A stretch of DNA of 36,649 nucleotides, from positions 1 to 36,649 of the IMG/VR virus record IMGVR_UViG_3300045999_008604; one strand, written 5' to 3'. Both the position numbers and the translations under genes were made by a program. The DNA is from a virus. The notes under the pieces are model-generated. The model saw only the letters and a program-made list of their open reading frames with translations, did no database searches and had not been told where the DNA came from. Positions 3,771 through 13,687 of this stretch are shown piece by piece; the first letter of the stretch is position 1, and each line of letters starts with the position of its first letter.

Positions 3771-3783
3771 TTTCATGTAGGAG

Positions 3784-3811: not shown

Positions 3812-3820
3812 CATTTATTT

Positions 3821-3883
3821 TCAAAAAATTACGCACATGGTGCGTAATAAGGACTTGACAGTTGGGACCAGGGGCGGCCCTGG
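3821..3883 (-). terminator. 3' cassette 1 (palindrome, GTCAA block, terminator)
   Basis: In transcription order: palindrome at 3883-3868 (CCAGGG..CCCTGG), 8 nt, GTCAA, then terminator stem ATTACGCAC/GTGCGTAAT (3848-3828, 3-nt loop) followed by a T-run. The first hairpin of the usual cassette lies at 3976-3999, separated from the palindrome by tRNA-Lys. Confidence 0.8.
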
Positions 3884-3889
3884 AAGTAG

Positions 3890-3961
3890 TGGACAGGATG
3901 AGACTCGAACTCATAACCAACGCCTTAAAAGGGCGCTGCTCTACCATTGAGCTACCTGTCC
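3890..3961 (-). tRNA. tRNA-Lys (TTT)
   Basis: Acceptor GGACAGG/CCTGTCC, D-arm AGCTCAATGGTAGAGC, anticodon loop CTTTTAA giving TTT, T-arm with AGTTCGAGTCT, discriminator A. No CCA is encoded, unlike tRNA-Arg and tRNA-Leu here. It reads AAA. It is embedded between the GC-rich hairpin at 3976-3999 and the cassette palindrome. Confidence 0.95.
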
Positions 3962-3975
3962 CTTTTGTGCCAGAG

Positions 3976-3999
3976 CCTCCCCCGCACTCGCGGGGGAGG
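3976..3999 (-). other. GC-rich hairpin between a three-gene unit and tRNA-Lys
   Basis: A perfect 10-bp stem CCTCCCCCGC/GCGGGGGAGG with a 4-nt loop and no T-tract. It holds the position of the first hairpin of the cassettes and may stabilise the mRNA 3' end or mark a processing site. Confidence 0.6.
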
Positions 4000-4033
4000 A
4001 TGGATGACACACGACTCACCTACTCAACAAAAA

Positions 4034-4321
4034 TTATCTTGCGGACTCGAAGCAATGCCCAGCGTGCGCGTCTAGGTACTGACGAATGGAACCAATGTTC
4101 GTCCATTGCACTTGCCTTTGCGCTCTTGCTTTCAGCCACGCTTCATCCCCAAGGGGATAGTAATCGCGAGAATGAAATTCTATTGCTTCAAATGCTTCTT
4201 CGAACTGCCGAAGAGCCTTCAACGCCTCAAAGTATTGATTGCCTAGTTTTTGACCAGAGTTCCCGTTCAAGTGAATCAATGGGAGCTGCATTTCGGGATT
4301 GTTTTCTGAAGCAATTGTCAT
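4034..4321 (-). CDS. Hypothetical protein, last gene of a coupled trio
   Basis: A 95-aa, mostly helical protein (MTIASENNPEMQLPLIHLNG...) with charged residues and no family assigned. Its ATG overlaps the stop of the preceding gene (ATGA at 4321-4318), so translation is coupled. It is followed by a GC-rich hairpin and tRNA-Lys, which may share its transcript. Confidence 0.7.
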   Translation of the reverse strand: MTIASENNPEMQLPLIHLNGNSGQKLGNQYFEALKALRQFEEAFEAIEFHSRDYYPLGDEAWLKARAQRQVQWTNIGSIRQYLDAHAGHCFESAR

Positions 4322-4599
4322 TTTTCTAAGTCAATTAGGACTTCGTTTTGGTTTAAGTAACTCAACAGAGAGTAAAACTGTGCGACAAGCATAGCATTAG
4401 AATCTTCTCTTGCAAGGATTTTTTTCGACACATCGAAGAATCTTTGAGGGGAAACAAGAGAATGATTGTTACAGCCCCAAACAAATTCATTTTCTTCTGC
4501 TAGTTGCATGTAAAACCAAGTATGCCACTCCGAAGGAAGAATTGCTGAGACGGGGATAATCTCAATGAATGAACTATTCTTTATGACTAAGTCTTTCAT
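4318..4599 (-). CDS. Hypothetical protein, middle gene of a coupled trio
   Basis: A 93-aa protein with several aromatic residues (SEWHTWFYMQLAEENEFVWG) and no recognised motif. It overlaps both neighbours by ATGA (start at 4599-4596, end at 4321-4318). No membrane segment is seen. Function unknown; the tight coupling suggests the three products work together or at fixed ratios. Confidence 0.7.
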   Translation of the reverse strand: MKDLVIKNSSFIEIIPVSAILPSEWHTWFYMQLAEENEFVWGCNNHSLVSPQRFFDVSKKILAREDSNAMLVAQFYSLLSYLNQNEVLIDLEK

Positions 4600-4811
4600 A
4601 GGTCAGATTGTTCTTCTTTGATAAAGTCCGCAATCATATCGTGAGTTTGAGACCAGTCAACAAAATGATTTGCTTTTTCTGCCAAGACTTCCCAATTATA
4701 ATCGTTCTCATCGAAGTCAAACGATTGTCCATCCCATGCCGCTAAGATGACGTTCGACACGCCTCTGTCACGCATTTCTTCTAAAATTTTGATAGCTCGG
4801 TCAATGTTCAT
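4596..4811 (-). CDS. Small acidic hypothetical protein, first of the trio
   Basis: A 71-aa protein (MNIDRAIKILEEMRDRGVSN...) with an N-terminal helix followed by an acidic 'FDFDENDYNWEVLAEKANHF' segment. This resembles small uncharacterised phage and plasmid proteins, but no name can be given. It should be translated leaderless, with the -10 box 6 nt upstream, and is coupled to the next gene by ATGA. Confidence 0.7.
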   Translation of the reverse strand: MNIDRAIKILEEMRDRGVSNVILAAWDGQSFDFDENDYNWEVLAEKANHFVDWSQTHDMIADFIKEEQSDL

Positions 4812-4817
4812 GTTTGG

Positions 4818-4845
4818 AGAATACCACGGTTTGATTGCGGCTCAA
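4818..4845 (-). promoter_or_regulatory. Leaderless promoter of the trio
   Basis: TTGAGC (4845-4840), 16-bp spacer, TATTCT (4823-4818), 6 nt CCAAAC, ATG at 4811. Confidence 0.75.
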
Positions 4846-4848
4846 GAT

Positions 4849-4944
4849 TTTTTTTAAAAAAAATTACGCACTCAGTGCGTAATAGTTGTTGACTCCTAAT
4901 GCCAGGGGCAGCCCTGGCGGCCTAACCACCTCATCCTGAGGTGG
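4849..4944 (-). terminator. 3' cassette 2, downstream of tRNA-Leu
   Basis: First hairpin CCACCTCA/TGAGGTGG (4944-4926), which overlaps the CCA end of tRNA-Leu; palindrome GCCAGGG..CCCTGGC (4918-4901); 8 nt; GTCAA; terminator ATTACGCACT/AGTGCGTAAT (4883-4863) with a single-base loop, followed by a long T-run on the minus strand. Confidence 0.8.
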
Positions 4945-5029
4945 TAGCTAAGGAGGGACTCGAACCCTCACGAGGATTGCTCCTCAACGGATTTTAAGTC
5001 CGTTGCGTCTGCCATTTCGCCACTTAGCC
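4942..5029 (-). tRNA. tRNA-Leu (TAA)
   Basis: Class II tRNA with a long variable arm (GAGGAGCAATCCTC). Anticodon loop CTTAAAA gives TAA; the acceptor GGCTAAG/CTTAGCT ends in a G-T pair, followed by discriminator A and an encoded CCA. It reads TTA, a leading leucine codon in the late genes. tRNA-Ile2 lies 15 nt upstream. Confidence 0.95.
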
Positions 5030-5044
5030 GAACGAAAAAGAAAG

Positions 5045-5117
5045 TGGGAACGGGGGGATTCGAACCCCCAACCAAGCGATTATGAGTCGCCTGCTCTGAC
5101 CATTGAGCTACATTCCC
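5045..5117 (-). tRNA. tRNA with CAT anticodon, probably Ile2 (reads ATA)
   Basis: Acceptor GGGAATG/CGTTCCC, anticodon loop CTCATAA, discriminator A, no CCA encoded. The anticodon arm and flanks (AGAGCAGGCGACTCATAATC, then GCTTGGT) match, from memory, E. coli tRNA-Ile2 rather than tRNA-Met. In Ile2 the C34 is changed to lysidine by TilS, giving ATA decoding. Met identity cannot be excluded by eye. It begins 7 nt after the stop of the upstream gene, implying an mRNA-tRNA cotranscript. Confidence 0.85.
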
Positions 5118-5123
5118 AAAAGC

Positions 5124-5453
5124 TTACAGTTCAAAAGCAAGAACATTATTTGGTTCCCCTCGGGGAATATAATCTTCATCTTCGCTTTCGAATAATGAGT
5201 ATCCTAGATAAGAAAGGGCAAAGTTGCAAGCATTTTCGTAAAGATAATCTTTGAAGGTGTGAATTTGTTCGCCAGAATCATCATCAACCAAAAAGTAATC
5301 TCTAACTTCATCATCTTTTGTTTTTGGTTCTACACGATAACCAAGATGGAAAAGAGCTTGTTCATCTGCACAGCCCGCTTTTTCTTCATTGTCAAGATAA
5401 AGTTCTTGCGTTTCTGTTTGTCTTTCGTCTGTTACAAGGATATATGACTTCAT
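5124..5453 (-). CDS. Hypothetical acidic protein cotranscribed with two tRNAs
   Basis: A 109-aa acidic protein (MKSYILVTDERQTETQELYL...) with alternating strand and helix segments. No family recognised. The in-frame start at 5492 is rejected because it includes the promoter; the ATG at 5453 lies exactly 6 nt from the -10 box. The stop is 7 nt before the tRNA-Ile2 5' end, so the unit is mRNA, tRNA-Ile2, tRNA-Leu, cassette 2. Confidence 0.7.
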   Translation of the reverse strand: MKSYILVTDERQTETQELYLDNEEKAGCADEQALFHLGYRVEPKTKDDEVRDYFLVDDDSGEQIHTFKDYLYENACNFALSYLGYSLFESEDEDYIPRGEPNNVLAFEL

Positions 5454-5459
5454 GTTTTT

Positions 5460-5488
5460 TTTATAAGCTAAGGGTAAAAGTTTGTCAA
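5460..5488 (-). promoter_or_regulatory. Leaderless promoter, gene plus tRNA-Ile2/Leu unit
   Basis: TTGACA (5488-5483), 17-bp spacer, TATAAA (5465-5460), 6 nt, ATG at 5453. It is close to the sigma70 consensus. Confidence 0.8.
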
Positions 5489-5540
5489 CCATTTTTTTTC
5501 AACGCTATACTCCAAACAAGCAGGACAATGAATAATTCAA

Positions 5541-6239
5541 TCATAGTTTGATCACAAAACCCGAGTTGTCTTTTTTTGCTGGACCTTTTGCACGAAGGCC
5601 CACGATGACACCGCCTTTGGGATCAAGGAAACGAAGGTCGTTTTCGTCTCCGTCAACTACTTTGAAGCCCTGATATTCTGTCGGCAAGGTCTGATCTTTC
5701 TTTGTGTCAAACACAAAAGCAGAATTAAAACCTTTTGACAAAGCCGCAAAAGCTCGCATCTGTGACAGCTTAGTCTCTGCGCGTGAGAAAGTCAAGTGAT
5801 AGTTCGGAATTGTCAAGGACAAACGATCAAAATCTTTCGTGTAGTCGTAGAATTGGGTAGTTGGGAATGTGTCAAACAAATTCTTTCCGTCGATTAAAAC
5901 ATTCTCCCATTCAATGTCAGAGGTGAGATTGGGACGAAACACAGCTTGCAAATTTTTCTTTTCGGCAGTCTTGATTGCCGATTGAATTTCTTTGACAAGC
6001 TGAGAAAGAAAAGCGTCGCGATGCTCAAAAAAGCTTTTTGTTTTTTCTACACGCTGGCTTTGCACCATTGGCCCCATGCCCGCCATGTTCAGACAGGAAT
6101 CCGTGCATCCTTTTGTTCTTTTCTTGCAAACCTCATAGCCACTAAGGTTTGCAGGGGCGAAGTGAATCCCAAAGGTTTCGTAGCCGAAGCTACGGCCCTT
6201 GAGCGTTTTGTAATTGGCAACAGTGAGAATCTTTTGCAT
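5541..6239 (-). CDS. Phage Gp88-family protein (mycobacteriophage gene product 88-like)
   Basis: A 232-aa protein matching the conserved pattern of phage Gp88 proteins: 'GYETFGIHFAPANLSGYEVC' (C38), then GC-x3-C (C45, C49), 'LNMAGMG', the 'RPNLTSDIEWE' segment, 'FYDYTKDFDR', 'YHLTFSRAE' and C-terminal 'VVDGDENDLRFLDPKGGVIVGLRAKG'. Length and motif order suggest a complete protein. The biochemical function is unknown; the conserved cysteines hint at metal or Fe-S binding (inference). It is the longest conserved gene in this part of the early block, with its own leaderless promoter. Confidence 0.8.
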   Translation of the reverse strand: MQKILTVANYKTLKGRSFGYETFGIHFAPANLSGYEVCKKRTKGCTDSCLNMAGMGPMVQSQRVEKTKSFFEHRDAFLSQLVKEIQSAIKTAEKKNLQAVFRPNLTSDIEWENVLIDGKNLFDTFPTTQFYDYTKDFDRLSLTIPNYHLTFSRAETKLSQMRAFAALSKGFNSAFVFDTKKDQTLPTEYQGFKVVDGDENDLRFLDPKGGVIVGLRAKGPAKKDNSGFVIKL

Positions 6240-6245
6240 GAGGGG

Positions 6246-6273
6246 AGAATAACACTTGCAAGGGGTGGCGCAA
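6246..6273 (-). promoter_or_regulatory. Leaderless promoter of the Gp88-family gene
   Basis: TTGCGC (6273-6268), 16-bp spacer, TATTCT (6251-6246), 6 nt CCCCTC, ATG at 6239. Confidence 0.75.
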
Positions 6274-6379
6274 CATTTTTTTTAAAAATATTTACGCCTT
6301 TAGGCGTAATAGTTCTTGACGCACGGAGCCAGGGGTAGCCCTGGATATAAAAAAACCCCGCTCCACACGGAGCGGGGTT
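6274..6379 (-). terminator. 3' cassette 3 with a strong extra terminator
   Basis: The first hairpin here is a true rho-independent terminator: AACCCCGCTCC/GGAGCGGGGTT (6379-6354, 4-nt loop) followed by a T-run. Then come palindrome GCCAGGG..CCCTGG (6344-6328), 8 nt, GTCAA, and a second terminator TTACGCC/GGCGTAA (6309-6292). A weaker stem GATTCC..GGAATC (6380-6418) precedes it, just after the stop codon of the gene at 6426. Confidence 0.85.
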
Positions 6380-6425
6380 GATTCCCTATCAAGTGTTAGC
6401 AGTTCAAGATAAGGAATCTATTGAT

Positions 6426-6701
6426 TCATCTACTTGGGATAATCGAGTTGTCTAGGATGCTGTCCAAGTAAAACATTCCAAAGTGTGGATCTACCTTGCC
6501 GTTCTTGGCCACCACATAAAGTGTGATTGCTTCGGGCGGGCAATGATTAGTTTTTCCTTTTGTTCCTTTCGTCACTCCCGTGCGAACGGTGTAGGTGTTT
6601 GTTTCACCTTTCTTGTTCCTGTACTTGATCGAAAAGAACTTTCCGTTAGTTGTGGCGATGATGCGTTTGCCGATCATATGTTTACAAGGCTCATTCTTCA
6701 T
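6426..6701 (-). CDS. WYL_2/SH3-like small beta-barrel protein
   Basis: A 91-aa protein starting at the ATG at 6701, which overlaps the upstream stop by 11 nt. The segment 'MIGKRIIATTNGKFFSIKYR', then a 'KKGETNTYTVRTGVTKGTKG' stretch, resembles the small SH3/Sm-like barrel proteins of phages (WYL_2, formerly DUF2693), with the typical 'R-GV-KG-KG' pattern. These are thought to bind nucleic acid or act as regulators; no role is proven. It is the last gene of a four-gene overlapping unit that begins at 7330. Confidence 0.6.
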   Translation of the reverse strand: MKNEPCKHMIGKRIIATTNGKFFSIKYRNKKGETNTYTVRTGVTKGTKGKTNHCPPEAITLYVVAKNGKVDPHFGMFYLDSILDNSIIPSR

Positions 6702-6900
6702 CTGGTGATTCTGTATGGTATGCAATGGTTGCGAGCAAGTGATTATAGTCAGAGCTTGTCGCTTCGTCAATCACTGCTTTACTTTCTTCGTGCGTCCATC
6801 CTTGTTTCCGTGCTGCACGGATGAAAGCCGCCATGATTGTGTAGGCGTTGCTGTCAATGCCCACGAGTTCCATTTTTACTTTTTTGTTTGTGAGGTTCAT
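6691..6900 (-). CDS. Conserved small phage protein
   Basis: A 69-aa protein. The core 'VGIDSNAYTIMAAFIRAARK', then 'QGWTHEESKAVIDEATSSDY' and 'NHLLATI', is a widespread pattern in uncharacterised phage proteins (IDSNAF-x-IM...ARKQGW...DY-HLL). The function is unknown; the helical pattern suggests an adaptor or DNA-binding fold. The start at 6900 overlaps the upstream stop by ATGA; a second ATG nine codons in is possible. Confidence 0.7.
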   Translation of the reverse strand: MNLTNKKVKMELVGIDSNAYTIMAAFIRAARKQGWTHEESKAVIDEATSSDYNHLLATIAYHTESPDEE

Positions 6901-7067
6901 ATTTTGCAGACTGGGTGAATGTCATTTCTAGCAGAAAGAATGGTCTGCTGCAATTTGTTTTTGCGGTCTTTCTTTTGTTTCCTGAGTTTTTGGAGGTGGA
7001 GAATCATTCCATCGATTTGATCGATGGACATTGTTTCAGCGATAGCAAGGATTTCTTTTTGTTTCAT
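6897..7067 (-). CDS. Short basic coiled-coil protein
   Basis: A 56-aa protein (MKQKEILAIAETMSIDQIDG...) with a lysine-rich heptad-like helix 'LHLQKLRKQKKDRKNKLQQ'. Its ATG at 7067 overlaps the upstream stop by one base (TAATG), which supports this start over the longer in-frame version. No family assigned. Confidence 0.65.
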   Translation of the reverse strand: MKQKEILAIAETMSIDQIDGMILHLQKLRKQKKDRKNKLQQTILSARNDIHPVCKI

Positions 7068-7330
7068 TAGTTGCGAGAGGTGGTGGTTTTGGTGTGAGGG
7101 TTCCAGAGGCGAAGCAGGTTTTCGTCCATCATAGTGTCGATGCCGAAGCTCAAGATTTGAAAGCATCCGTACAGAGCGTGAGCTTGCAAACGCAAGACTT
7201 TTTCCATTTCGCTTGGCTCATTAGCTCTGTCAAGAGCATTCTCGGTTTCTTTGCTCAACTTCACCAGCATTTGTGCAAACTGGGTGACGAGGTTCTTGTG
7301 GTAGGCGAGGTCGTTTTGCTCTTTGCTCAT
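7067..7330 (-). CDS. Hypothetical helical protein, first gene of a four-gene unit
   Basis: An 87-aa, mostly helical protein (MSKEQNDLAYHKNLVTQFAQ...). The long upstream extension of this frame runs through cassette 4 and the promoter, so it is rejected; the ATG at 7330 lies 6 nt after the -10 box. Unknown function. Translation of the three downstream genes is coupled by overlapping starts and stops. Confidence 0.7.
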   Translation of the reverse strand: MSKEQNDLAYHKNLVTQFAQMLVKLSKETENALDRANEPSEMEKVLRLQAHALYGCFQILSFGIDTMMDENLLRLWNPHTKTTTSRN

Positions 7331-7336
7331 ACAAGT

Positions 7337-7364
7337 AGTATTGCACAGAGTTTTGGGGTTGAAA
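7337..7364 (-). promoter_or_regulatory. Leaderless promoter of a four-gene unit
   Basis: TTTCAA (7364-7359), 16-bp spacer, AATACT (7342-7337), 6 nt, ATG at 7330. Both boxes are weaker than those of its neighbours. Confidence 0.6.
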
Positions 7365-7375
7365 GACTTTTTTTG

Positions 7376-7457
7376 AAAAAAATTACGCATAAGTGCGTAA
7401 TAGTAGTTGACGGTTGGAGCCAGGGGTAGCCCTGGACCCGCCCCTTTACGGGGCGGG
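7376..7457 (-). terminator. 3' cassette 4
   Basis: First hairpin CCCGCCCC/GGGGCGGG (7457-7437), palindrome GCCAGGG..CCCTGG (7435-7419), 8 nt, GTCAA, terminator ATTACGCA/TGCGTAAT (7401-7382) with a T-run. Confidence 0.8.
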
Positions 7458-7473
7458 CGGGGGGACTTGTCAA

Positions 7474-7788
7474 CTAAATTGTTTCGATTGCGTGTTGGAG
7501 CAGGGTGACAGTACCAACTTGTTTTTGATACTCCTCCCCTTTGAAGACGATGCCAACGGTTTTGCCCGTGAGGGTTATTTCGTTCGGTGGTTTCACGCCC
7601 CATTTGTAGTTGAACAGGTTCGTGTGAGTGCTACCGTCTTTGTGGCGCAGGTCGTGAATGTTTGTGGGAATGAAGTAGTCGCCGCAGTCGCGAAGAATGA
7701 TTCTTTGATTCCTCTTGATTGCCTTTTTGATTCTGTGCCAGTGATTGGTTGGAGCTACAATGGTGATGTTTTTTGTGTTACTGATCAT
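7474..7788 (-). CDS. Hypothetical protein with beta-rich core
   Basis: A 104-aa basic protein (MISNTKNITIVAPTNHWHRI...), containing 'KKAIKRNQRIILRDCGDYFI' and a C-terminal 'LTGKTVGIVFKGEEYQKQVG' beta segment. No family recognised. It forms a single-gene unit between cassettes 4 and 5 with a leaderless promoter. Confidence 0.65.
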   Translation of the reverse strand: MISNTKNITIVAPTNHWHRIKKAIKRNQRIILRDCGDYFIPTNIHDLRHKDGSTHTNLFNYKWGVKPPNEITLTGKTVGIVFKGEEYQKQVGTVTLLQHAIETI

Positions 7789-7794
7789 GCTTGG

Positions 7795-7822
7795 AGCATA
7801 CCAGAACCCATGAGGGCTGCAA
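7795..7822 (-). promoter_or_regulatory. Leaderless promoter of the gene at 7474
   Basis: TTGCAG (7822-7817), 16-bp spacer, TATGCT (7800-7795), 6 nt CCAAGC, ATG at 7788. Confidence 0.75.
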
Positions 7823-7832
7823 CATTTTTATT

Positions 7833-7946
7833 CAAAAAAATTACGCACTTGTGCGTAATAGGAGATTGACGGCTGGAGCCAGGGGTGCCCCTGGCCCCTC
7901 GCATGGCGAGGGGTGGTGGTGAGGGGAGCGGTAACCCGCTCCCCTC
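7833..7946 (-). terminator. 3' cassette 5 with an additional long hairpin
   Basis: After the DUF932 gene comes an 11-bp hairpin GAGGGGAGCGG/CCGCTCCCCTC (7946-7921), then CCCCTCGC/GCGAGGGG (7913-7895), palindrome GCCAGGG..CCCTGGC (7895-7878), 8 nt, GTCAA, and terminator ATTACGCAC/GTGCGTAAT (7859-7840) with a T-run. Four hairpins in a row. Confidence 0.8.
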
Positions 7947-7953
7947 GAAGGGC

Positions 7954-8724
7954 TTACGCCTCAGCGCCCGCAAGCTCTTCCGCGTCAATCGGTTCCACTT
8001 CGATGACCGAGGCGTGACCCGCGATGCTGTCGAACATCGACTGCATAACCATCGTCCGCGCAGGGAGTTTGGTGAGGTCGGAACCTTTGAGGTTCTCCGT
8101 CACCGAGTTGTACAAGTTCCACAACGTCGGGGAGTTAAACTCGGGGTGACGCGGAGCCTTGAACTCTTGAGTGACTGCGAACACGTCGCGAGAGGGAAGA
8201 GCCTTGGCCTCAGCGAGTTGCACCGCAAGCTCGCACGCACGGTTGAAACCGATCTCGGTCTGCTGATAGCGGGCGATCCGCGTTTCCATGTCTGTCCAGT
8301 GAGACATGAGGCGACCGATACCCTCAGACAACACGCGGGGAATGTCGCGGATGATGTTGAGAGTATGGCGGCGAGCGAGCTTGACATCTGACGAGAAACA
8401 AAGGTTCTCGCAAACGATCATCCGATTGCCAATGCACATTGAAGCTGCAAAGGACTTGTCATGCGCGTTACGCAATCCAAGAACCAACTTGCGCGAATCG
8501 CTGTTGATATCGGGCCCAGTAATCTGGAACCCGCCGAAGTACCGCTGACCGAAGCGGCCCAGAGCGTGCTTCTCTTCCGTCACGCTGTAGCCCGCACGAT
8601 CAAGAGCGGAAAGCGTTTCTTCCACAAGGAAGGAGTGGCTGATAGGAGTGAAGCTGTCCGTGCCTTCGGGCGTGCGGACGTTGGCGAGTTCTTCACGGGA
8701 GACGAGGTTTTTTGCAATGATCAT
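7954..8724 (-). CDS. DUF932 domain protein
   Basis: A 256-aa protein resembling the DUF932 family, found on phages and plasmids and of unknown biochemical role. Key stretch: 'RYFGGFQITGPDINSDSRKL', then 'LGLRNAHDKSFAASMCIGNR' and 'MIVCENLCFSSDVKLARRHT', the family's central block with conserved N-HD-S and G-CENL. Its GC content is clearly higher than that of the late genes. Unlike its neighbours it has a leader of about 30 nt between the predicted transcription start and the ATG at 8724, without a Shine-Dalgarno motif. Confidence 0.8.
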   Translation of the reverse strand: MIIAKNLVSREELANVRTPEGTDSFTPISHSFLVEETLSALDRAGYSVTEEKHALGRFGQRYFGGFQITGPDINSDSRKLVLGLRNAHDKSFAASMCIGNRMIVCENLCFSSDVKLARRHTLNIIRDIPRVLSEGIGRLMSHWTDMETRIARYQQTEIGFNRACELAVQLAEAKALPSRDVFAVTQEFKAPRHPEFNSPTLWNLYNSVTENLKGSDLTKLPARTMVMQSMFDSIAGHASVIEVEPIDAEELAGAEA

Positions 8725-8760
8725 ATTCTGTTGATGTTGTAGGTTTAACTAACGGAAAGA

Positions 8761-8789
8761 AGTATCTCACACTCGGTGCGGTAGTTCAA
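8761..8789 (-). promoter_or_regulatory. Promoter of the DUF932 gene (not leaderless)
   Basis: TTGAAC (8789-8784), 17-bp spacer, GATACT (8766-8761). It lies 36 nt before the ATG at 8724, the one clear exception to the 6-nt rule in this block. Confidence 0.65.
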
Positions 8790-8834
8790 CGCTTTTTTTT
8801 AATTTTGATCGTTTTTTTTCATTCAGAAACCATG

Positions 8835-8920
8835 CCAAGTGCAAAAAATTTTGCACTTGGACGTAATAGTGCTTGACGGCCCAGGCCAGGGGGAGCCCTG
8901 GCCCCAACCCTTTCGGGTTG
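8835..8920 (-). terminator. 3' cassette 6 with a variant terminator stem
   Basis: First hairpin CAACCC/GGGTTG with a GAAA loop on the transcribed strand (8920-8905), palindrome GCCAGGG..CCCTGGC (8902-8885), 8 nt, GTCAA, then a perfect 12-bp stem CCAAGTGCAAAA/TTTTGCACTTGG (8860-8835) in place of the usual TTACGC stem. Confidence 0.75.
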
Positions 8921-8932
8921 AGGCGTTTGAGC

Positions 8933-9127
8933 TTACTCTGGGAGATAGTAGCGCACTTGGAAAGCAAAGACTGTTTTCTTGTGCTTCCTGAGTTGCCCCT
9001 TCTCTTGCCAAGAGTATTCCACCCAATTGTCACTCGCTTTCACGATGGTGACTTTGTGGCTGGAGCCGTCACAAGAATGCCAAACTTGGCCTTCTTGGAT
9101 TTGATGTTCTTTGAGCCAAGTCTTCAT
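8933..9127 (-). CDS. Small hypothetical protein
   Basis: A 64-aa protein (MKTWLKEHQIQEGQVWHSCD...) with a beta-barrel-like pattern: 'GQVWHSCDGSSHKVTIVKAS', then 'NWVEYSWQEKG'. Phage and plasmid proteins of this kind often have an SH3-like fold, but no family is assigned. Its ATG overlaps the stop of a 44-codon ORF by ATGA (9127-9124). Confidence 0.65.
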   Translation of the reverse strand: MKTWLKEHQIQEGQVWHSCDGSSHKVTIVKASDNWVEYSWQEKGQLRKHKKTVFAFQVRYYLPE

Positions 9128-9258
9128 GTTTCTGGTGGTTTTTTGTGCTTTGGGTTTCGCTTGTAAACTTTCTTGCTAGGTTCAACAATTTGGAGTTTGC
9201 GATTACCCCAGCAGATTGTTTTTTGGTAAGTCTTGCCTTCGTGCTTGAGCTTTTTCAT
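9124..9258 (-). CDS. 44-aa basic protein between two overlapping genes
   Basis: A short ORF: MKKLKHEGKTYQKTICWGNR, then a K/R-rich tail ending in KPPET. Both ends overlap neighbouring genes by ATGA (9258-9255 and 9127-9124), the arrangement expected of a translationally coupled gene. This is why it is called despite its size. Strongly basic; perhaps nucleic-acid binding, function unknown. Confidence 0.7.
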   Translation of the reverse strand: MKKLKHEGKTYQKTICWGNRKLQIVEPSKKVYKRNPKHKKPPET

Positions 9259-9575
9259 CGAATGTTGTACCTCACCCATTTGTCTTCAGAAGTGAAAACA
9301 TAAAGATATGATGCCCAACAAGCTTTTGCAAAGGCTTTTAATTCTTGGAGGGGAAATGAAACTTTTTCTTTTTTCTCCGTGTAGAAAGCGCAGGTTTCTA
9401 TGGTCGGCCCAAGCGAGGACATGTCTCCGCGAGAAATCAATTCTTTTATTTTGTTTCTGTCTTTGTAGGACTCTTCGAGCGTAGCGCCTACGCCCGAAGG
9501 GTAGCCATCCCAATGGCAGTACACAGCGTCGTGTTTATCTCCGTCTTGAATTGCAATGATTGATCTAGTAGCCAT
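9255..9575 (-). CDS. Conserved phage protein of unknown function
   Basis: A 106-aa protein beginning 'MATRSIIAIQDGDKHDAVYC', then HWDGYPSGVGATLEESYKDR, followed by 'ISRGDMSSLG'. This is a recurrent phage and plasmid family (MATRS-IA...YCHWDGYP...L...Y-D) whose function I do not know. First gene of a three-gene unit with ATGA overlaps. Confidence 0.75.
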   Translation of the reverse strand: MATRSIIAIQDGDKHDAVYCHWDGYPSGVGATLEESYKDRNKIKELISRGDMSSLGPTIETCAFYTEKKEKVSFPLQELKAFAKACWASYLYVFTSEDKWVRYNIR

Positions 9576-9581
9576 GTGAGT

Positions 9582-9609
9582 AATGTAGTTGAAAAATGAA
9601 AAGCCGCAA
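9582..9609 (-). promoter_or_regulatory. Leaderless promoter of a three-gene unit
   Basis: TTGCGG (9609-9604), 16-bp spacer, TACATT (9587-9582), 6 nt ACTCAC, ATG at 9575. No cassette separates it from the gene upstream. Confidence 0.75.
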
Positions 9610-9611
9610 GA

Positions 9612-9824
9612 TTAAAAAATGGCTTGCTCAGGTTCTATCTGTTCGCACACAAGGTCAAGAATTTTCCTCATGTAAGTAGTCGATGATTCATAAACCGCAT
9701 AACCTTCATGCTCGGCAATGTAGCAGAGCATGTGTTGGACATCTTCTGCTAAATTTTTTGATTCAAGCACAGCTTGAACTGCTTTCATTACCGCTTCACC
9801 TTGAGGGGGGTATTTCGTAGTCAT
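9612..9824 (-). CDS. Small hypothetical helical protein
   Basis: A 70-aa acidic, helical protein (MTTKYPPQGEAVMKAVQAVL...). No motif or family recognised. Single gene between cassette 7 and the promoter of the next unit. Confidence 0.65.
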   Translation of the reverse strand: MTTKYPPQGEAVMKAVQAVLESKNLAEDVQHMLCYIAEHEGYAVYESSTTYMRKILDLVCEQIEPEQAIF

Positions 9825-9830
9825 GCGAGA

Positions 9831-9859
9831 AATGTAAAACAGGAAAGAGAAAGGCGCAA
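9831..9859 (-). promoter_or_regulatory. Leaderless promoter of the gene at 9612
   Basis: TTGCGC (9859-9854), 17-bp spacer, TACATT (9836-9831), 6 nt, ATG at 9824. Confidence 0.75.
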
Positions 9860-9868
9860 TTAAAAAGT

Positions 9869-9958
9869 GAAAAAAATTTACGTCGAAGACGTAATAGTGC
9901 TTGACGACTGGAGCCAGGGGTGGCCCTGGACCTCCCCAACCCTTTAGGGTTGAGGAGG
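9869..9958 (-). terminator. 3' cassette 7
   Basis: First hairpin pairs CCTCC and CAACCC with GGGTTG and GGAGG (9958-9931), palindrome GCCAGGG..CCCTGG (9929-9913), 8 nt, GTCAA, terminator TTACGTC/GACGTAA (9894-9878): the stem is changed on both sides relative to TTACGC/GCGTAA. Confidence 0.8.
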
Positions 9959-9973
9959 TTGTGGGGGGGGATT

Positions 9974-10180
9974 TTATTCCTCATTGGGGCCACCGAAAGC
10001 CGCATCCCACTCTTCGGCGGTGATGCCCGTCTTGATGAACTCGCGTTCATCAGGCGTGAGGTTCGGGAACGCATCTTGGATCAGCGCACCAGCCTCATAG
10101 GCGGCGAACTGTTCCAAGGTGGCGGGGATGTCGAGGGTGGTGACCTTGCCAGAGAGCATCGAAGTACGAGTAATGTTCAT
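9974..10180 (-). CDS. Small acidic protein with a 'LTPDEREFIKTGITAEEW' tail
   Basis: A 68-aa protein. The C-terminal half 'AGALIQDAFPNLTPDEREFI', then KTGITAEEWDAAFG, resembles a family of small uncharacterised phage and plasmid proteins. The in-frame start at 10228 includes the promoter, so the ATG at 10180, 6 nt after the -10 box, is chosen. Function unknown. Confidence 0.7.
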   Translation of the reverse strand: MNITRTSMLSGKVTTLDIPATLEQFAAYEAGALIQDAFPNLTPDEREFIKTGITAEEWDAAFGGPNEE

Positions 10181-10186
10181 ACGGGA

Positions 10187-10214
10187 AGAATAGACCAAAA
10201 AAAGAATGCCGCAA
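10187..10214 (-). promoter_or_regulatory. Leaderless promoter of the gene at 9974
   Basis: TTGCGG (10214-10209), 16-bp spacer, TATTCT (10192-10187), 6 nt TCCCGT, ATG at 10180. Confidence 0.75.
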
Positions 10215-10225
10215 TCTTTTTTATT

Positions 10226-10310
10226 CAAAAAAATTTACGCTGAAAGCGTAATAGGTGTTGACAGCTCAGGCCAGGGGTAGCCCTGGCCCTCAACCCTTTC
10301 GGGTCGAGGG
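10226..10310 (-). terminator. 3' cassette 8
   Basis: First hairpin CCCTCGACCC/GGGTTGAGGG with a GAAA loop and one mismatch (10310-10287), palindrome GCCAGGG..CCCTGGC (10287-10270), 8 nt, GTCAA, terminator TTACGCT/AGCGTAA (10251-10235). Confidence 0.8.
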
Positions 10311-10319
10311 GTTTGCGGC

Positions 10320-10553
10320 TTAGTAGTTTAAGCCTTCTGCATCAGGATATTCTGCACGCATCCTCTCGGCGTACTCCACATCTTCCTCCACTTGTGTCAA
10401 CTGATAAATGTGGGAGATGGGAACTTTTTCTTCTTGCTTTTCTGGGTGAAGCTCGTCTTGAAGCGCTTCGACTGCGGTGGCAATCTTCGCGAGGTCATCC
10501 GAGTTCTTACAGAACTTTTTGATGCAGTGGATAATGTATTCGGAATCAGTCAT
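10320..10553 (-). CDS. Small acidic protein, paralog of the protein at 11820
   Basis: A 77-aa protein. Its N-terminal half 'IIHCIKKFCKNSDDLAKIAT', then AVEALQDEL, aligns by eye with 'LINFIRENHLNADALAQLAS', then AVECMREEL, of the protein at 11820, so the two look like diverged duplicates. The C-terminal halves differ. It lies 8 nt after the stop of the gene at 10562 and is probably cotranscribed. Function unknown. Confidence 0.65.
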   Translation of the reverse strand: MTDSEYIIHCIKKFCKNSDDLAKIATAVEALQDELHPEKQEEKVPISHIYQLTQVEEDVEYAERMRAEYPDAEGLNY

Positions 10554-10561
10554 AAATGGTT

Positions 10562-10819
10562 CTAGTTGTAGGCTTTGGGGCGGGCTTGTCCTTCGTTCTT
10601 TGCTTCTTCGGCTTCAAGGCATTCAGCCGCAGCCTGATACATTTCGGCCACGACTTCGTTGAATTTTGGATCGCCCGCAAACCGACCTTGAAGCGCAAAC
10701 AAGGTTTTTTCCAGCCATATGATGCGCACATGTAACTGGCTCTGAGGCTTTTGCATAATGAGGGCTTTGGAATAGTCCTCGATCTTGTCAACCAACTGGG
10801 AAATGAGAATCGCTTTCAC
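10562..10819 (-). CDS. Hypothetical helical protein with GTG start
   Basis: An 85-aa, mostly helical protein (MKAILISQLVDKIEDYSKAL...). No family recognised. The start codon is GTG at 10819, exactly 6 nt after the -10 box, so even a GTG-started gene keeps the leaderless spacing. First gene of a two-gene unit. Confidence 0.65.
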   Translation of the reverse strand: MKAILISQLVDKIEDYSKALIMQKPQSQLHVRIIWLEKTLFALQGRFAGDPKFNEVVAEMYQAAAECLEAEEAKNEGQARPKAYN

Positions 10820-10825
10820 GGGCTA

Positions 10826-10853
10826 AACATAGCACAAACAAACAAACTGCAAA
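10826..10853 (-). promoter_or_regulatory. Leaderless promoter of a GTG-started gene
   Basis: TTTGCA (10853-10848), 16-bp spacer, TATGTT (10831-10826), 6 nt TAGCCC, GTG at 10819. Confidence 0.7.
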
Positions 10854-10856
10854 GCT

Positions 10857-10941
10857 AAAAAAATTTACGCCGAAGGCGTAATAGTTGTTGACAGCTGAGG
10901 CCAGGGGTAGCCCTGGACCCCCAACCCTTTCGGGTTGAGGG
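10857..10941 (-). terminator. 3' cassette 9
   Basis: First hairpin CAACCC/GGGTTG with a GAAA loop (10937-10922), palindrome GCCAGGG..CCCTGG (10916-10900), 8 nt, GTCAA, terminator TTACGCC/GGCGTAA (10881-10865). Confidence 0.8.
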
Positions 10942-10957
10942 TTTTAGGTTTCATCGT

Positions 10958-11194
10958 TTAGTACCCGCATGCAGCGTGAGCATCAAAGCCATAACGCTCA
11001 AATTGCTCAAGTACTTCAATCAGAGCTTCTTGAGTGCGTTCGGCAATCCGCGCATCTTGCGCAGTTGAAGATGCAAATTGAGCAATCTCCTCCAATAGGT
11101 TAATGTCGCTGGAAGTGAGCGAGCTGCTTTCGATGTTGCGCAAAAAGGCGCGAACCGACACGAGAGACACAGTGGATTTTGAGGAAGTGGTCAT
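10958..11194 (-). CDS. Small protein, paralog of the protein at 12262
   Basis: A 78-aa protein starting MTTSSKS. The stretch 'LTSSDINLLEEIAQFASSTA', then QDARIAERTQEALI, aligns with 'MSAEQIELLESLAHHASSMA', then QEARFVHAAQAKLI, of the protein at 12262 (shared S..I.LLE..A..ASS.AQ.AR). Helical; function unknown. The promoter places the start at 11194; an upstream in-frame start would lie inside the promoter. Confidence 0.65.
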   Translation of the reverse strand: MTTSSKSTVSLVSVRAFLRNIESSSLTSSDINLLEEIAQFASSTAQDARIAERTQEALIEVLEQFERYGFDAHAACGY

Positions 11195-11200
11195 GCTGAA

Positions 11201-11228
11201 AACATAACACAAAAAAGCGGTATTGCAA
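11201..11228 (-). promoter_or_regulatory. Leaderless promoter with upstream 17-bp palindrome
   Basis: TTGCAA (11228-11223), 16-bp spacer, TATGTT (11206-11201), 6 nt TTCAGC, ATG at 11194. A palindrome lies 9 bp upstream of the -35 box. Confidence 0.75.
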
Positions 11229-11237
11229 GGCTCATTT

Positions 11238-11254
11238 TTCGTGCCATGTACGAA
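11238..11254. promoter_or_regulatory. Candidate operator, copy 1
   Basis: TTCGTGCCATGTACGAA, a 17-bp near-palindrome 9 bp upstream of a -35 box. Copies at the same spacing occur at 11646-11662 and 12138-12154. Confidence 0.5.
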
Positions 11255-11262
11255 TTAAAATT

Positions 11263-11364
11263 CAAAAAAATTTTATCCGAATGCATAATAGTTGTTGACG
11301 TACGGGGCCAGGGGTAGCCCTGGATTTTGTCAAGGTTTTTTTGCGGGGGCTTTCGCCCCCGCAA
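11263..11364 (-). terminator. 3' cassette 10 with a weak terminator
   Basis: First hairpin is a perfect 10-bp TTGCGGGGGC/GCCCCCGCAA with a GAAA loop on the transcribed strand (11364-11341). Palindrome GCCAGGG..CCCTGG (11323-11307), 8 nt and GTCAA are intact. The terminator stem is degraded (TTAT..ATAA), so read-through is likely. Confidence 0.7.
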
Positions 11365-11383
11365 GCTCATGCAGATGAATTGC

Positions 11384-11602
11384 TTACACCGCAAGTGGTT
11401 CGAGCCCAAGCTCTTGCAATCTATTGTTCAGAGCTTGACGCACCAAAGGCGATTCCATTATGGCTATGGCCACGAAGCCCTGCATACTGCCCAGAGCAGC
11501 AGCCTTGCCCACGGTGGAGGAGTCGCCCTTGCGCTCATATACGCGCTCAATGGCTTGGCAGAGGGCTTCGACGGTTTCGAGGTTCTCAATCATGTTTGTC
11601 AT
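11384..11602 (-). CDS. Small hypothetical protein
   Basis: A 72-aa protein (MTNMIENLETVEALCQAIER...) with helices and a small-residue segment 'VGKAAALGSMQGFVAIAIME'. No family recognised; too short and polar to call membrane-bound. The start at 11602 is set by the promoter. Confidence 0.65.
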   Translation of the reverse strand: MTNMIENLETVEALCQAIERVYERKGDSSTVGKAAALGSMQGFVAIAIMESPLVRQALNNRLQELGLEPLAV

Positions 11603-11608
11603 GCTGAA

Positions 11609-11637
11609 ACAATAGATCAAAAAGCTCGTTTAGTCAA
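11609..11637 (-). promoter_or_regulatory. Leaderless promoter with upstream 17-bp palindrome
   Basis: TTGACT (11637-11632), 17-bp spacer, TATTGT (11614-11609), 6 nt TTCAGC, ATG at 11602. The 6 nt and ATG match those of the gene at 10958. Confidence 0.75.
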
Positions 11638-11645
11638 AAACAATC

Positions 11646-11662
11646 TTCGTGCCATGCACGAA
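11646..11662. promoter_or_regulatory. Candidate operator, copy 2 (perfect palindrome)
   Basis: TTCGTGCCATGCACGAA: two perfect 7-bp arms around CAT, 8 bp upstream of a -35 box. Confidence 0.5.
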
Positions 11663-11675
11663 AAAAAAAAAAAAA

Positions 11676-11738
11676 ATAAAAAAATTTACACAATCAGCGT
11701 AATAGTTGTTGACACGCGGGGCCAGGGGTAGCCCTGGC
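11676..11738 (-). terminator. 3' cassette 11
   Basis: Palindrome GCCAGGG..CCCTGGC (11738-11721), 8 nt, GTCAA and a degraded terminator stem (TTACGC/GTGTAA). Termination for this unit is probably done by the strong hairpin at 11773-11800. Confidence 0.7.
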
Positions 11739-11772
11739 GGCTGTCAAGTATTTTCTTTTGTTTTTCTCACAA

Positions 11773-11800
11773 AAAAAACCCGCCCGAAGGCGGGTTTTTT
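11773..11800 (-). terminator. Rho-independent terminator
   Basis: AAAAAACCCGCC/GGCGGGTTTTTT, a symmetrical 12-bp stem with a TTCG loop on the minus strand and T-runs on both strands. Ends the gene at 11820. Confidence 0.9.
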
Positions 11801-11819
11801 AGTTGACACGCGGAGTACA

Positions 11820-12095
11820 CTAGAAGTTGTCGCCGCCGATATCGGTGAGCGATTCCCAGTACGAATCCAAGAAGCGGTCCTCCGCGCCGTAGTCCTCATC
11901 CATGCCCCACCCAGCGGAGGCGAGCGCGTCGGCGTCCGCCTCCCCGTCCGTGAAGTTGTCTTCGGGCGGTTCGGCAGTCGCGAACTGGTCGCCCAGTTCT
12001 TCGCGCATGCACTCGACGGCGCTCGCGAGCTGCGCGAGCGCGTCGGCGTTAAGGTGGTTTTCGCGGATGAAGTTGATGAGCTGGTGAATATCCAT
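11820..12095 (-). CDS. Very acidic small protein, paralog of the protein at 10320
   Basis: A 91-aa protein. The N-terminal 34 residues resemble those of the protein at 10320; the rest is strikingly acidic (PPEDNFTDGEADADALASAG, then WGMDEDYGAEDRF). Such tails occur in DNA-mimic and in scaffold-type phage proteins, but no function is shown. Single-gene unit with a leaderless promoter and a strong terminator. Confidence 0.65.
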   Translation of the reverse strand: MDIHQLINFIRENHLNADALAQLASAVECMREELGDQFATAEPPEDNFTDGEADADALASAGWGMDEDYGAEDRFLDSYWESLTDIGGDNF

Positions 12096-12101
12096 GCCCC
12101 A

Positions 12102-12129
12102 AACATAACAGAAAAAACCGTGCGGTCAA
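12102..12129 (-). promoter_or_regulatory. Leaderless promoter with upstream palindrome
   Basis: TTGACC (12129-12124), 16-bp spacer, TATGTT (12107-12102), 6 nt TGGGGC, ATG at 12095. Confidence 0.75.
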
Positions 12130-12137
12130 AAACAATC

Positions 12138-12154
12138 TTCATGCCACAGCCGAA
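12138..12154. promoter_or_regulatory. Candidate operator, copy 3 (diverged)
   Basis: TTCATGCCACAGCCGAA, 8 bp upstream of a -35 box. Matches copies 1 and 2 at the outer arms and at GCCA. A fourth relative, TTCATGCCAGGTACGGG, is at 14514-14530, farther from its promoter. Confidence 0.4.
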
Positions 12155-12162
12155 TAAAAATG

Positions 12163-12248
12163 CAAAAAAATTACGCCGAAGGGCGTAATACCCCTTGACG
12201 TGCGGGGCCAGGGGTAGCCCTGGACCCCCAACCCTTTCGGGTTGAGGG
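12163..12248 (-). terminator. 3' cassette 12
   Basis: First hairpin CAACCC/GGGTTG with a GAAA loop (12244-12229), palindrome GCCAGGG..CCCTGG (12223-12207), 8 nt, GTCAA, terminator TTACGCC/GGCGTAA (12188-12171). Confidence 0.8.
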
Positions 12249-12261
12249 ACTTAGGCGTCTC

Positions 12262-12555
12262 TTACGGGAATCGCCCCTGACCGATGATATCAAGCATCAA
12301 ACGCTCATACGCAAGTATCTCGGCCCGTTCACGTTCCTCTTGATCCGCAATGAGCTTGGCCTGAGCGGCATGCACAAACCGCGCTTCCTGCGCCATGCTG
12401 GATGCGTGATGCGCAAGCGATTCGAGCAGTTCGATTTGCTCCGCGCTCATCGCGTAGGGGTCAACTACGTTATTGGACGCGAGCGCGTCACACGCGAGCG
12501 CGGCGACGGCAAAGAAGGTGTGGGACTTAGTGGATTGAGCGAGTGAATTAACCAT
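12262..12555 (-). CDS. Small protein, paralog of the protein at 10958
   Basis: A 97-aa, alanine-rich helical protein (MVNSLAQSTKSHTFFAVAAL...). The central block matches the protein at 10958 (see there). The N-terminal in-frame extension to 12603 covers the promoter and is rejected. Function unknown. Confidence 0.65.
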   Translation of the reverse strand: MVNSLAQSTKSHTFFAVAALACDALASNNVVDPYAMSAEQIELLESLAHHASSMAQEARFVHAAQAKLIADQEERERAEILAYERLMLDIIGQGRFP

Positions 12556-12561
12556 GCAAAA

Positions 12562-12589
12562 AAGATACCTCATTCCCACCAGTTCACAA
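12562..12589 (-). promoter_or_regulatory. Leaderless promoter of the gene at 12262
   Basis: TTGTGA (12589-12584), 16-bp spacer, TATCTT (12567-12562), 6 nt TTTTGC, ATG at 12555. The -35 and -10 hexamers are identical to those of the ncRNA candidate at 13041-13068. Confidence 0.75.
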
Positions 12590-12600
12590 CATAAAAAAAT

Positions 12601-12686
12601 CAAAAAAATTTCACATTCTTACGTAATACCCCTTGACACGCGGGGCCAGGGGTAGCCTTGGACCCCCAACCCTTTCGTGTTGAGGG
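12601..12686 (-). terminator. 3' cassette 13, partly decayed
   Basis: First hairpin CAACAC/GTGTTG-like with a mismatch (12682-12667), palindrome with one arm change (GCCAGGG..CCTTGG, 12661-12645), 8 nt and GTCAA intact, terminator stem degraded. Confidence 0.65.
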
Positions 12687-12708
12687 ACTTGTGAGGCCGT
12701 TGACTTAG

Positions 12709-12906
12709 TCAATCAAAAACTTCATGAGCTATACCTGATTCAGGCTGCTCATAAGTCTCTATAAAGTACTTGTAAGGATGCTTGCGCCCCTTAATCCAAT
12801 CCACGGCAGACTTCCTATCAAAGAAGACTCCGATGAACTCATTGACTGAGTTGTGCTCAGGGCTGGGAGATTCCTTAAAGACGATGTGTACTTGAATCTT
12901 GGTCAC
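12709..12906 (-). CDS. Small hypothetical protein with GTG start
   Basis: A 65-aa protein (MTKIQVHIVFKESPSPEHNS...). A beta-strand start, then 'FIGVFFDRKSAVDWIKGRKH' with a helix, suggests a compact alpha/beta fold; family unknown. GTG at 12906 lies exactly 6 nt after the -10 box TACTAT. Confidence 0.65.
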   Translation of the reverse strand: MTKIQVHIVFKESPSPEHNSVNEFIGVFFDRKSAVDWIKGRKHPYKYFIETYEQPESGIAHEVFD

Positions 12907-12912
12907 GGTTCT

Positions 12913-12941
12913 ATAGTAGGCTCAGAGGGTGGACATAGCAA
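12913..12941 (-). promoter_or_regulatory. Leaderless promoter of a GTG-started gene
   Basis: TTGCTA (12941-12936), 17-bp spacer, TACTAT (12918-12913), 6 nt AGAACC, GTG at 12906. It begins 6 bp past the ncRNA candidate. Confidence 0.7.
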
Positions 12942-12946
12942 CGCTT

Positions 12947-13034
12947 ATGAGAAGGGATTGACTGATGACCAAGACTGGGGCCACACATCGGTTCGGGCTT
13001 ACGTAAAGGCCAACAGTCAATCTCTTCTCATCAT
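12947..13034 (-). ncRNA. Candidate small hairpin RNA with its own promoter
   Basis: 18-nt inverted arms (13031-13014 and 12964-12947; one G-T wobble or mismatch) enclose a 49-nt loop. A promoter placed exactly as for the leaderless genes (13041-13068) should start transcription at 13034. An ATG is there, but the reading frame stops after five codons (MMRRD), so the product is more likely RNA than protein. The loop holds short self-complementary pieces (GGCC, TTACGTAA). No terminator hairpin of the usual type follows before the next promoter. A decayed gene is the alternative. Confidence 0.5.
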
Positions 13035-13040
13035 GGTTTA

Positions 13041-13068
13041 AAGATAGAGATTCTCTGTTTTTTCACAA
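13041..13068 (-). promoter_or_regulatory. Promoter of the candidate hairpin RNA
   Basis: TTGTGA (13068-13063), 16-bp spacer, TATCTT (13046-13041), 6 nt, ATG at 13034 that leads only to a five-codon frame. Confidence 0.7.
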
Positions 13069-13078
13069 CATAAAAATG

Positions 13079-13164
13079 CAAAAAAATTTACCAAAACAGC
13101 GTAATAGTACTTGACACCCGAGGCCAGGGGTGGCCCTGGACCCCTAACCCTTTCGGGTTGAGGG
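13079..13164 (-). terminator. 3' cassette 14
   Basis: First hairpin CAACCC/GGGTTA with a GAAA loop (13160-13145), palindrome GCCAGGG..CCCTGG (13139-13123), 8 nt, GTCAA; the terminator stem is degraded. Confidence 0.7.
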
Positions 13165-13179
13165 TTTTACGCACGCGAA

Positions 13180-13416
13180 TTACACGACTTCCAAATCGTT
13201 CTCGAACCCATGAGCAATCAGCTTGCCCCCTTTGTATACCCGAACCCAGCAGTCCGCCCAGTTGGTGGCCCTGCTGCGCTCATACTGATCCCACGCCTGC
13301 GAGGAGGCTTTGGCCATAGCCCTACAGACGCTACGGCTCATGCCCCGCCCATACGGGTGAACGCCTTCGGCGTTGGTGATGATCGCGTACTCCACGGTGA
13401 AGAAGTTAGTAGTCAT
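13180..13416 (-). CDS. Small hypothetical protein
   Basis: A 78-aa protein (MTTNFFTVEYAIITNAEGVH...), containing 'RGMSRSVCRAMAKASSQAWD' and 'NWADCWVRVYKGGKLIAHGF'. The pattern of a beta sheet plus one helix suggests a compact fold; no family recognised. The ATG at 13416 is set by the promoter, rejecting a GTG two codons upstream. Confidence 0.65.
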   Translation of the reverse strand: MTTNFFTVEYAIITNAEGVHPYGRGMSRSVCRAMAKASSQAWDQYERSRATNWADCWVRVYKGGKLIAHGFENDLEVV

Positions 13417-13422
13417 GCACAC

Positions 13423-13450
13423 AACCTACCAAAACCGCCTAATCGCACAA
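13423..13450 (-). promoter_or_regulatory. Leaderless promoter of the gene at 13180
   Basis: TTGTGC (13450-13445), 16-bp spacer, TAGGTT (13428-13423), 6 nt GTGTGC, ATG at 13416. Confidence 0.7.
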
Positions 13451-13460
13451 TATAAAAAGT

Positions 13461-13523
13461 GCGAAAAAATTTCGCGTTTTATCGTAATAGGTGTTGACAG
13501 CCGAGGCCAGGGGTGCCCCTGGC
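13461..13523 (-). terminator. 3' cassette 15, rightmost full copy
   Basis: Palindrome GCCAGGG..CCCTGGC (13523-13506), 8 nt, GTCAA, then a stem GCGAAA/TTTCGC (13475-13461) in place of the TTACGC stem. The 115 bp upstream (13524-13637) hold no supported gene, only short inverted repeats such as GTAAGT/ACTTAC. Confidence 0.7.
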
Positions 13524-13659: not shown

Positions 13660-13687
13660 CATCTTGCTGAGAGTGAACGCTTTAGCG

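Follow-up and report, generated by a model that had tools for sequence, protein, structure and literature searches.

We analyzed a repeated intergenic cassette in the early region of an uncultured phage, using the whole IMG/VR record IMGVR_UViG_3300045999_008604 (36,649 bases; hereafter, the window). The window encodes a T4-like terminase (weak Pfam match), PhoH, a sigma-like protein, a clamp-loader/RuvB-like ATPase, DUF932, GP88, and SprT, and it carries four tRNA genes at 3694-5117. An Rfam scan of the window at gathering score returned the four tRNAs and nothing else; the cassettes match no Rfam family. As an earlier note on this DNA had described, the motif TTGAC-N8-CCAGGGG occurs 15 times on the plus strand, with first bases running from 3855 to 13494, and it was absent from 100 dinucleotide shuffles. 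The orientation needed correction: the genes of the array are on the minus strand.

Read along the gene strand, a gene stop is followed, often after another hairpin, by the palindrome CCAGGG N4 CCCTGG, eight nucleotides (nt), and GTCAA. Four further nt (five in two copies) lead to TATTACG, with which a terminator-like hairpin (hairpin C) begins; this hairpin ends in a T run, and beyond it come an A/T-rich stretch, a promoter, and the start codon of the next gene. The 8-nt gap between TTGAC and the palindrome was constant in all 15 window copies, and every GTCAA block has the same orientation relative to the genes (15/15). The gap between CCAGGGG and CCCTGG, given previously as 1 to 3 nt, is always 3 nt, which corresponds to 6-bp arms around a 4-nt center. 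The second arm is a perfect CCCTGG in 14 of 15 copies and CCTTGG in the remaining one, at 12633. Almost all small early genes are preceded by the palindrome, mostly at a set distance from their promoter, and the first three minus-strand genes of the array after the divergent region are cassette-free.

The distance from palindrome to start codon falls into a few classes on the minus strand. It is 90 nt in the cassette at 4812-4917 (palindrome 4902-4917, GTCAA 4889-4893), which has a leaderless-looking promoter and a gene start at 4811, and again at 7789-7894 (palindrome 7879-7894; gene 7474-7788), 10181-10286 (palindrome 10271-10286; gene start 10180), 12556-12661 (palindrome 12646-12661, one arm mutated to CCAAGG on the gene strand), and 13417-13522 (palindrome 13507-13522), the first cassette after the three cassette-free genes. 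It is 89 nt at 6240-6344 (palindrome 6329-6344), which holds the promoter of the GP88-family gene at 5541-6239; at 7331-7435 (palindrome 7420-7435), where an extra upstream TTGAC forms the outer stem of the fold together with GTCAA; and at 9825-9929 (palindrome 9914-9929; gene 9612-9824). The cassette at 10820-10916 (palindrome 10901-10916; gene 10562-10819, GTG start) has 81 nt. Longer distances were found at 11195-11323 (palindrome 11308-11323; 113-nt class), 11603-11737 (palindrome 11722-11737; 119 nt), both with a mirrored TTGAC upstream, and 12096-12223 (palindrome 12208-12223; 112-nt class; gene 11820-12095). The cassette at 8725-8901 (palindrome 8886-8901), before the DUF932 gene at 7954-8724, is of a long type with 161 nt. 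Between tRNA-Lys and tRNA-Arg, the cassette at 3771-3883 has a palindrome (3868-3883) that directly follows tRNA-Lys, together with GTCAA and the TATTACG hairpin. Palindrome (13124-13139), GTCAA, and TATTACG are also present at 13101-13139, beside a degenerate unit (12907-13041) whose promoter-proximal ATG opens a 5-codon frame only. A 16th palindrome, CCAGGGCCACCCCTGG at 2424-2439 (plus strand), lies between convergent genes, without GTCAA and with no promoter after it.

To quantify the link with promoters, we used our own scorer, which looks for a -10-like hexamer 5 to 7 nt ahead of a start codon with an open frame of 45 or more codons and for a -35-like hexamer 15 to 18 nt further up. Applied to sites in six phages, it yielded 76 candidates, 68 of them above the score cut. 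Although the palindrome carries no weight in the score, its distance to the start codon was 87 to 91 nt in 30 of the 68 promoter-scored sites and 112 to 114 nt in nine. Exactly 6 nt separated the -10 box from the start codon in 54/68, and the spacer was 16 nt in 48, counts that lean upward because the scorer gives a small bonus to 6 nt and to 16 to 17 nt. By this geometry, the early genes (e.g., those starting at 4811, 6239, 7788, 9824, and 10180) look leaderless. When 21 non-redundant cassettes were aligned by their start codons, the palindrome, GTCAA, TATT, -35, and -10 were conserved, as was a AAATTTTTTT run at -55 to -46. The 90 nt between palindrome and start otherwise differ, with a mean pairwise identity of 0.44. 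The distance from the preceding stop to the palindrome ranges from 3 to 206 nt in the window, although for many copies that have the first hairpin it is 30 to 47 nt. The cassette is thus tied more to the promoter of the next gene than to the 3' end of the preceding one, and the label of 3' cassette that it had been given is misleading. Promoters similar to the leaderless type of the window also occur in more distant relatives. An antisense promoter built on TTGAC was rejected on inspection: no -10 lies at 16 to 18 bp, where the palindrome sits.

Related palindromes were found by scanning IMG/VR and selected records for the pattern; the carriers reported here (G001 to G007) are a lower bound. 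Copy numbers were 5 in G001, 18 in G002, 15 in G005, 10 in G006, and 2 in the fragment G004, and G003 has 14 exact copies plus 2 with one mismatch. In G007, which has a capsid locus (L035) with 80% identity to that of the window, the palindrome takes a shifted form, CCAGG N6 CCTGG, present in nine copies and mostly with CCAGGC arms; the pattern scan found no palindrome in G008 and G009. The CCAGGG-type records (the window and G001 to G006) contain 79 palindromes in which both arms are perfect and three one-arm variants, but no compensated double change. The arms are therefore near-invariant, as the earlier note had observed within the window. The center of the palindrome differs among copies and is found in either orientation with respect to the genes. 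Each palindrome contributes two CCWGG (Dcm) sites, which elsewhere are at or below expectation, at about half of it in most records (outside palindromes, 14 observed versus 27.6 expected in the window, 0 versus 13.7 in G003, and 13 versus 17.0 in G001).

The GTCAA block is less constant. It lies within 18 nt of the palindrome in 15/16 window copies, 5/5 in G001, 14/15 in G005, and 9/10 in G006, versus 8/18 in G002, 3/16 in G003, and 0/9 in G007. Its place is taken by CATTATG-type sequence in G002 and G003 and by GTAAG or GCAAG in G007. In relatives the gap to the palindrome is 5 to 9 nt, which, with the many copies that have other sequence, shows that a fixed 8-nt distance is not a general rule. 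GTCAA and TATT, on the other hand, are separated by 4 nt in 51 of the 54 cases from the window and its relatives, and with one mismatch allowed the window has 13 matches to GTCAA-N4-TATTAC (0.6 expected). The block is therefore locked to TATT, and the 8-nt gap is a property of the window genome. Related phages had been proposed as a check, with freely compensating arms and an unconserved TTGAC counting against the element. The outcome was mixed: we found arms without compensated variation in the window lineage, different matched arms in other lineages, and a TTGAC that is only partly conserved.

To sample other lineages, we used relatives of the DUF932 protein at 36 to 65% identity in addition to close ones. 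Different multi-copy palindromes take comparable positions in them. CCGGGCC-N-GGCCCGG is a full dyad with one free central base in 57 of 59 non-redundant copies, and TTGGGGAATATTCCCCAA, which is fully palindromic, is kept in 18/20. At locus L311 the TTGGGGAATATTCCCCAA palindromes come as tandem pairs, 9 bp apart, with a terminator on one side and a promoter on the other. Further multi-copy palindromes in distant lineages are CGTTGA-N3-TCAACG and AAATCGC-N3-GCGATTT; at L279 to L282, the former shares intergenic regions with CCCACCC-N4-GGGTGGG hairpins. On the DUF932 tree the palindrome types group by clade, although several clades show none and one grouping joins long branches. The CCGGGC lineage has GTCAAG 2 to 17 nt after its palindrome, mostly at 7 to 10 nt. 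An enrichment of GTCAAG in distant phages without adjacent hairpins was set aside, as it looks largely like CTTGAC -35 boxes and coding words. For the CCGGGCC and TTGGGGAATATTCCCCAA types, the conserved dyad extends to positions that cannot pair in an RNA hairpin. Judged from these patterns, the palindrome behaves more like a dyad in double-stranded DNA than like an RNA hairpin.

The major capsid protein of the window had no match in 50,697 GenBank phage records (E value, 1e-5), its terminase reached only about 23 to 26% identity among the matches listed, and the early region (7950-14500) gave only short matches of 77 to 88 bases in four records; we therefore found no close cultured relative. 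A capsid relative at 66% identity lies in a contig of a Verrucomicrobiales metagenome-assembled genome (MAG) and another, at 54%, in a Flavobacteriaceae MAG. The protein at 14756-15337 has a DUF1549 (PSCyt2)-like N terminus, below the Pfam cutoff. DUF1549 is a domain of Planctomycetota/Verrucomicrobiota type, and together with the 66% capsid relative it hints at a host in the Verrucomicrobiota, a weak hint because MAG binning errors are possible. IMG/VR contained 482 loci with related capsid genes; in the 80 that were fetched and in the two MAG contigs, no palindrome was repeated four or more times. The repeats therefore belong to the early region rather than to the surroundings of structural genes, and in the records searched they are confined to early regions. 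A DUF932 scan across GTDB contigs gave no matches. At 30163-33882 the window encodes a repeat-rich protein of 1,239 amino acids with recurring CLCxDG/CWDG motifs, probably a fiber.

The explanation that we consider somewhat better than an even bet is an intergenic terminator-promoter cassette with an operator-like, double-stranded DNA site for a lineage-specific dimeric protein, by which early units are controlled or insulated. It draws on computed features, namely the number of copies, their near-invariant arms, the spacing kept to the promoter, the leaderless geometry, the confinement to early regions in the records searched, and the replacement of the palindrome between lineages. Such cassettes would separate independently promoted early genes, each comprising a palindrome, a GTCAA-N4-TATTACG block, an intrinsic terminator with a T run, an A/T tract, a sigma-70-type promoter, and a predicted leaderless start. 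The palindrome, which lies shortly before the terminator and, measured from the predicted start site, about 98 bp upstream, would be recognized by the dimeric protein, which is probably phage encoded. It would most likely block incoming transcription, act on the downstream promoter, or both. In the window lineage, recognition of DNA rather than RNA is our inference, and so are the binding protein itself, where it comes from, and its mode of action (repression, activation, or a block to read-through). The earlier preference for a bound protein over a simple hairpin is thus retained insofar as the near-invariant arms and the dyads of distant lineages indicate more than a simple hairpin; the argument from a TTGAC at fixed spacing is not supported by the relatives.

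Several observations weigh against an operator-like site. The DNA reading leans in part on the other lineages, because the inner positions of the palindrome are asymmetric in most copies of the window lineage (CTAC center, C..C). The window, G002, G003, G005, and G006 each have one palindrome in a convergent gap, and none of these five has a downstream promoter; promoter control alone is therefore not the whole role. The copies within one genome are probably related by duplication, so neither the invariance of the arms nor the constancy of the spacing can be counted as a series of independent events. Finally, two family scans of G005, into which 101 of 122 listed open reading frames were entered, gave no candidate for a palindrome-binding protein among the 25 most-matched of the 39 and 71 families that they detected, and a DNA-binding regulator among the remaining frames or families would escape them. 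G005 encodes two sigma-like proteins. Its phrog_624 "DNA binding protein" is not a likely regulator because of a Pfam hint of pyrimidine-dimer glycosylase (E value, 0.0011, below the cutoff).

Duplication is central to an alternative that we regard as unlikely, in which the cassettes are homology tracts for recombination that shuffle small early genes, like the promoter early stem loops (PeSLs) of T4-type phages, and the palindrome persists mainly through duplication and gene conversion, along with use as a weak terminator. The cassettes do flank independently promoted small genes, the order of units varies among relatives (the DUF932 unit, f20, is placed differently), and the paralogue family f0 recurs within arrays. 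Yet gene conversion would make the flanks uniform too, whereas the palindrome stays constant while the adjacent 90 nt diverge to 0.44 identity, and the copies at 2424 and beside the tRNA have unrelated flanks. A plain bidirectional hairpin that lacks a specific ligand and serves 3'-end protection or termination would suit the stable fold and the location after genes and tRNAs. We consider it highly improbable: no T tract directly follows the palindrome, the spacing is kept to the downstream promoter, and the neighboring hairpin C has variable arms where those of the palindrome are near-invariant.

An RNA element of the nut/boxB kind appears quite unlikely to us, even if parts of the architecture would accommodate it. 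A transcribed hairpin with an unpaired GUCAA would recruit an RNA-binding protein of the phage together with a host factor and so modulate termination. In transcript orientation the hairpin and conserved block indeed precede the terminator, the combination recurs with other arms (the CCGGGC hairpin with GTCAAG mostly 7 to 10 nt on), and some folds show an outer UUGAC/GUCAA stem. But the center, which would be the loop, is variable and found in both orientations relative to genes, many copies in relatives are without GTCAA, several palindromes lie beyond the U-tract terminator of the upstream gene, and other lineages conserve inner dyad positions that are unpairable in RNA. A resemblance to the ends of IS200/IS605 elements, which have a hairpin plus TCAA, was considered and set aside, with no transposase search made.

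An operator-like palindrome suggests a previously undescribed switch or boundary signal that would be read by a putative DNA-binding protein. A broader proposal, that this uncultured phage group has a genome-wide operator/insulator system in which each lineage has its own boundary palindromes, a co-evolving dimeric reader, and leaderless early promoters, is one that we hold tentatively, at somewhat less than even confidence. If true, the system would amount to a multi-site regulon in which the specificity code changes from one lineage to another. Few known systems have multi-copy phage regulatory sites with lineage-specific sequence, and the window group is another candidate, one that stands out by its very regular geometry and leaderless-looking early promoters. 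With at least four palindrome types across the DUF932 tree, it also offers a natural data set for a co-variation search for the cognate protein.

Known systems resemble the cassette in part. Lambdoid nut sites (boxA-boxB) combine a phage-specific hairpin with a conserved linear element about 8 nt away, and the lineage-specific hairpin with a conserved block nearby is shared. In the window, however, the order of the elements is reversed with respect to transcription, the loop is variable and occurs in both orientations, and the element sits before terminators and promoters. Cluster K mycobacteriophages carry multi-copy SAS/ESAS repeats of unknown function upstream of the start codons of a subset of genes; the SAS itself is 13 bp long (GGGATAGGAGCCC) and accompanies translation initiation sites, and about half of the repeats have an upstream inverted repeat (PMC3203893). 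Repeats upstream of start codons and inverted repeats are common to both, but the window palindrome lies about 90 nt upstream, the start codons look leaderless, and our 115-nt start-anchored alignment contained no SAS-like block near the start codon.

Stoperators of Cluster A mycobacteriophages occupy tens of intergenic sites per genome, with GGTGGMTGTCAAG in L5 and GTTACGWDTCAAG in Bxb1, which have TCAAG in common and differ in the rest (PMC3029335). They are asymmetric 13-mers, bound by a monomer and proposed to halt transcription (PMC9283540). The cassettes share the many intergenic copies and the single orientation relative to transcription (15/15 GTCAA blocks), but here the lineage-specific part is a palindrome rather than an asymmetric monomer site. 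The L5 consensus with three mismatches gave 17 matches versus 10.9 expected, none at GTCAA blocks, and the cassettes thus do not fit the consensus; one single-mismatch match (11736-11748, plus strand) adjoins a palindrome. No homologue of a stoperator-type immunity repressor was named among the 25 most-matched families in the G005 scans (101/122 open reading frames). PeSLs are described as repeated terminator-promoter cassettes among small early genes, with a proposed role in gene shuffling (summarized in PMC4503421). An early promoter and a stem-loop terminator between small early genes are likewise what the window cassettes contain. Compared by architecture rather than by sequence, the window adds a near-invariant 16-bp palindrome, a GTCAA-N4-TATT block, leaderless-looking promoters, and the swapping of the palindrome between lineages. 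Of these systems, PeSLs are nearest in architecture and the L5 stoperators nearest in logic.

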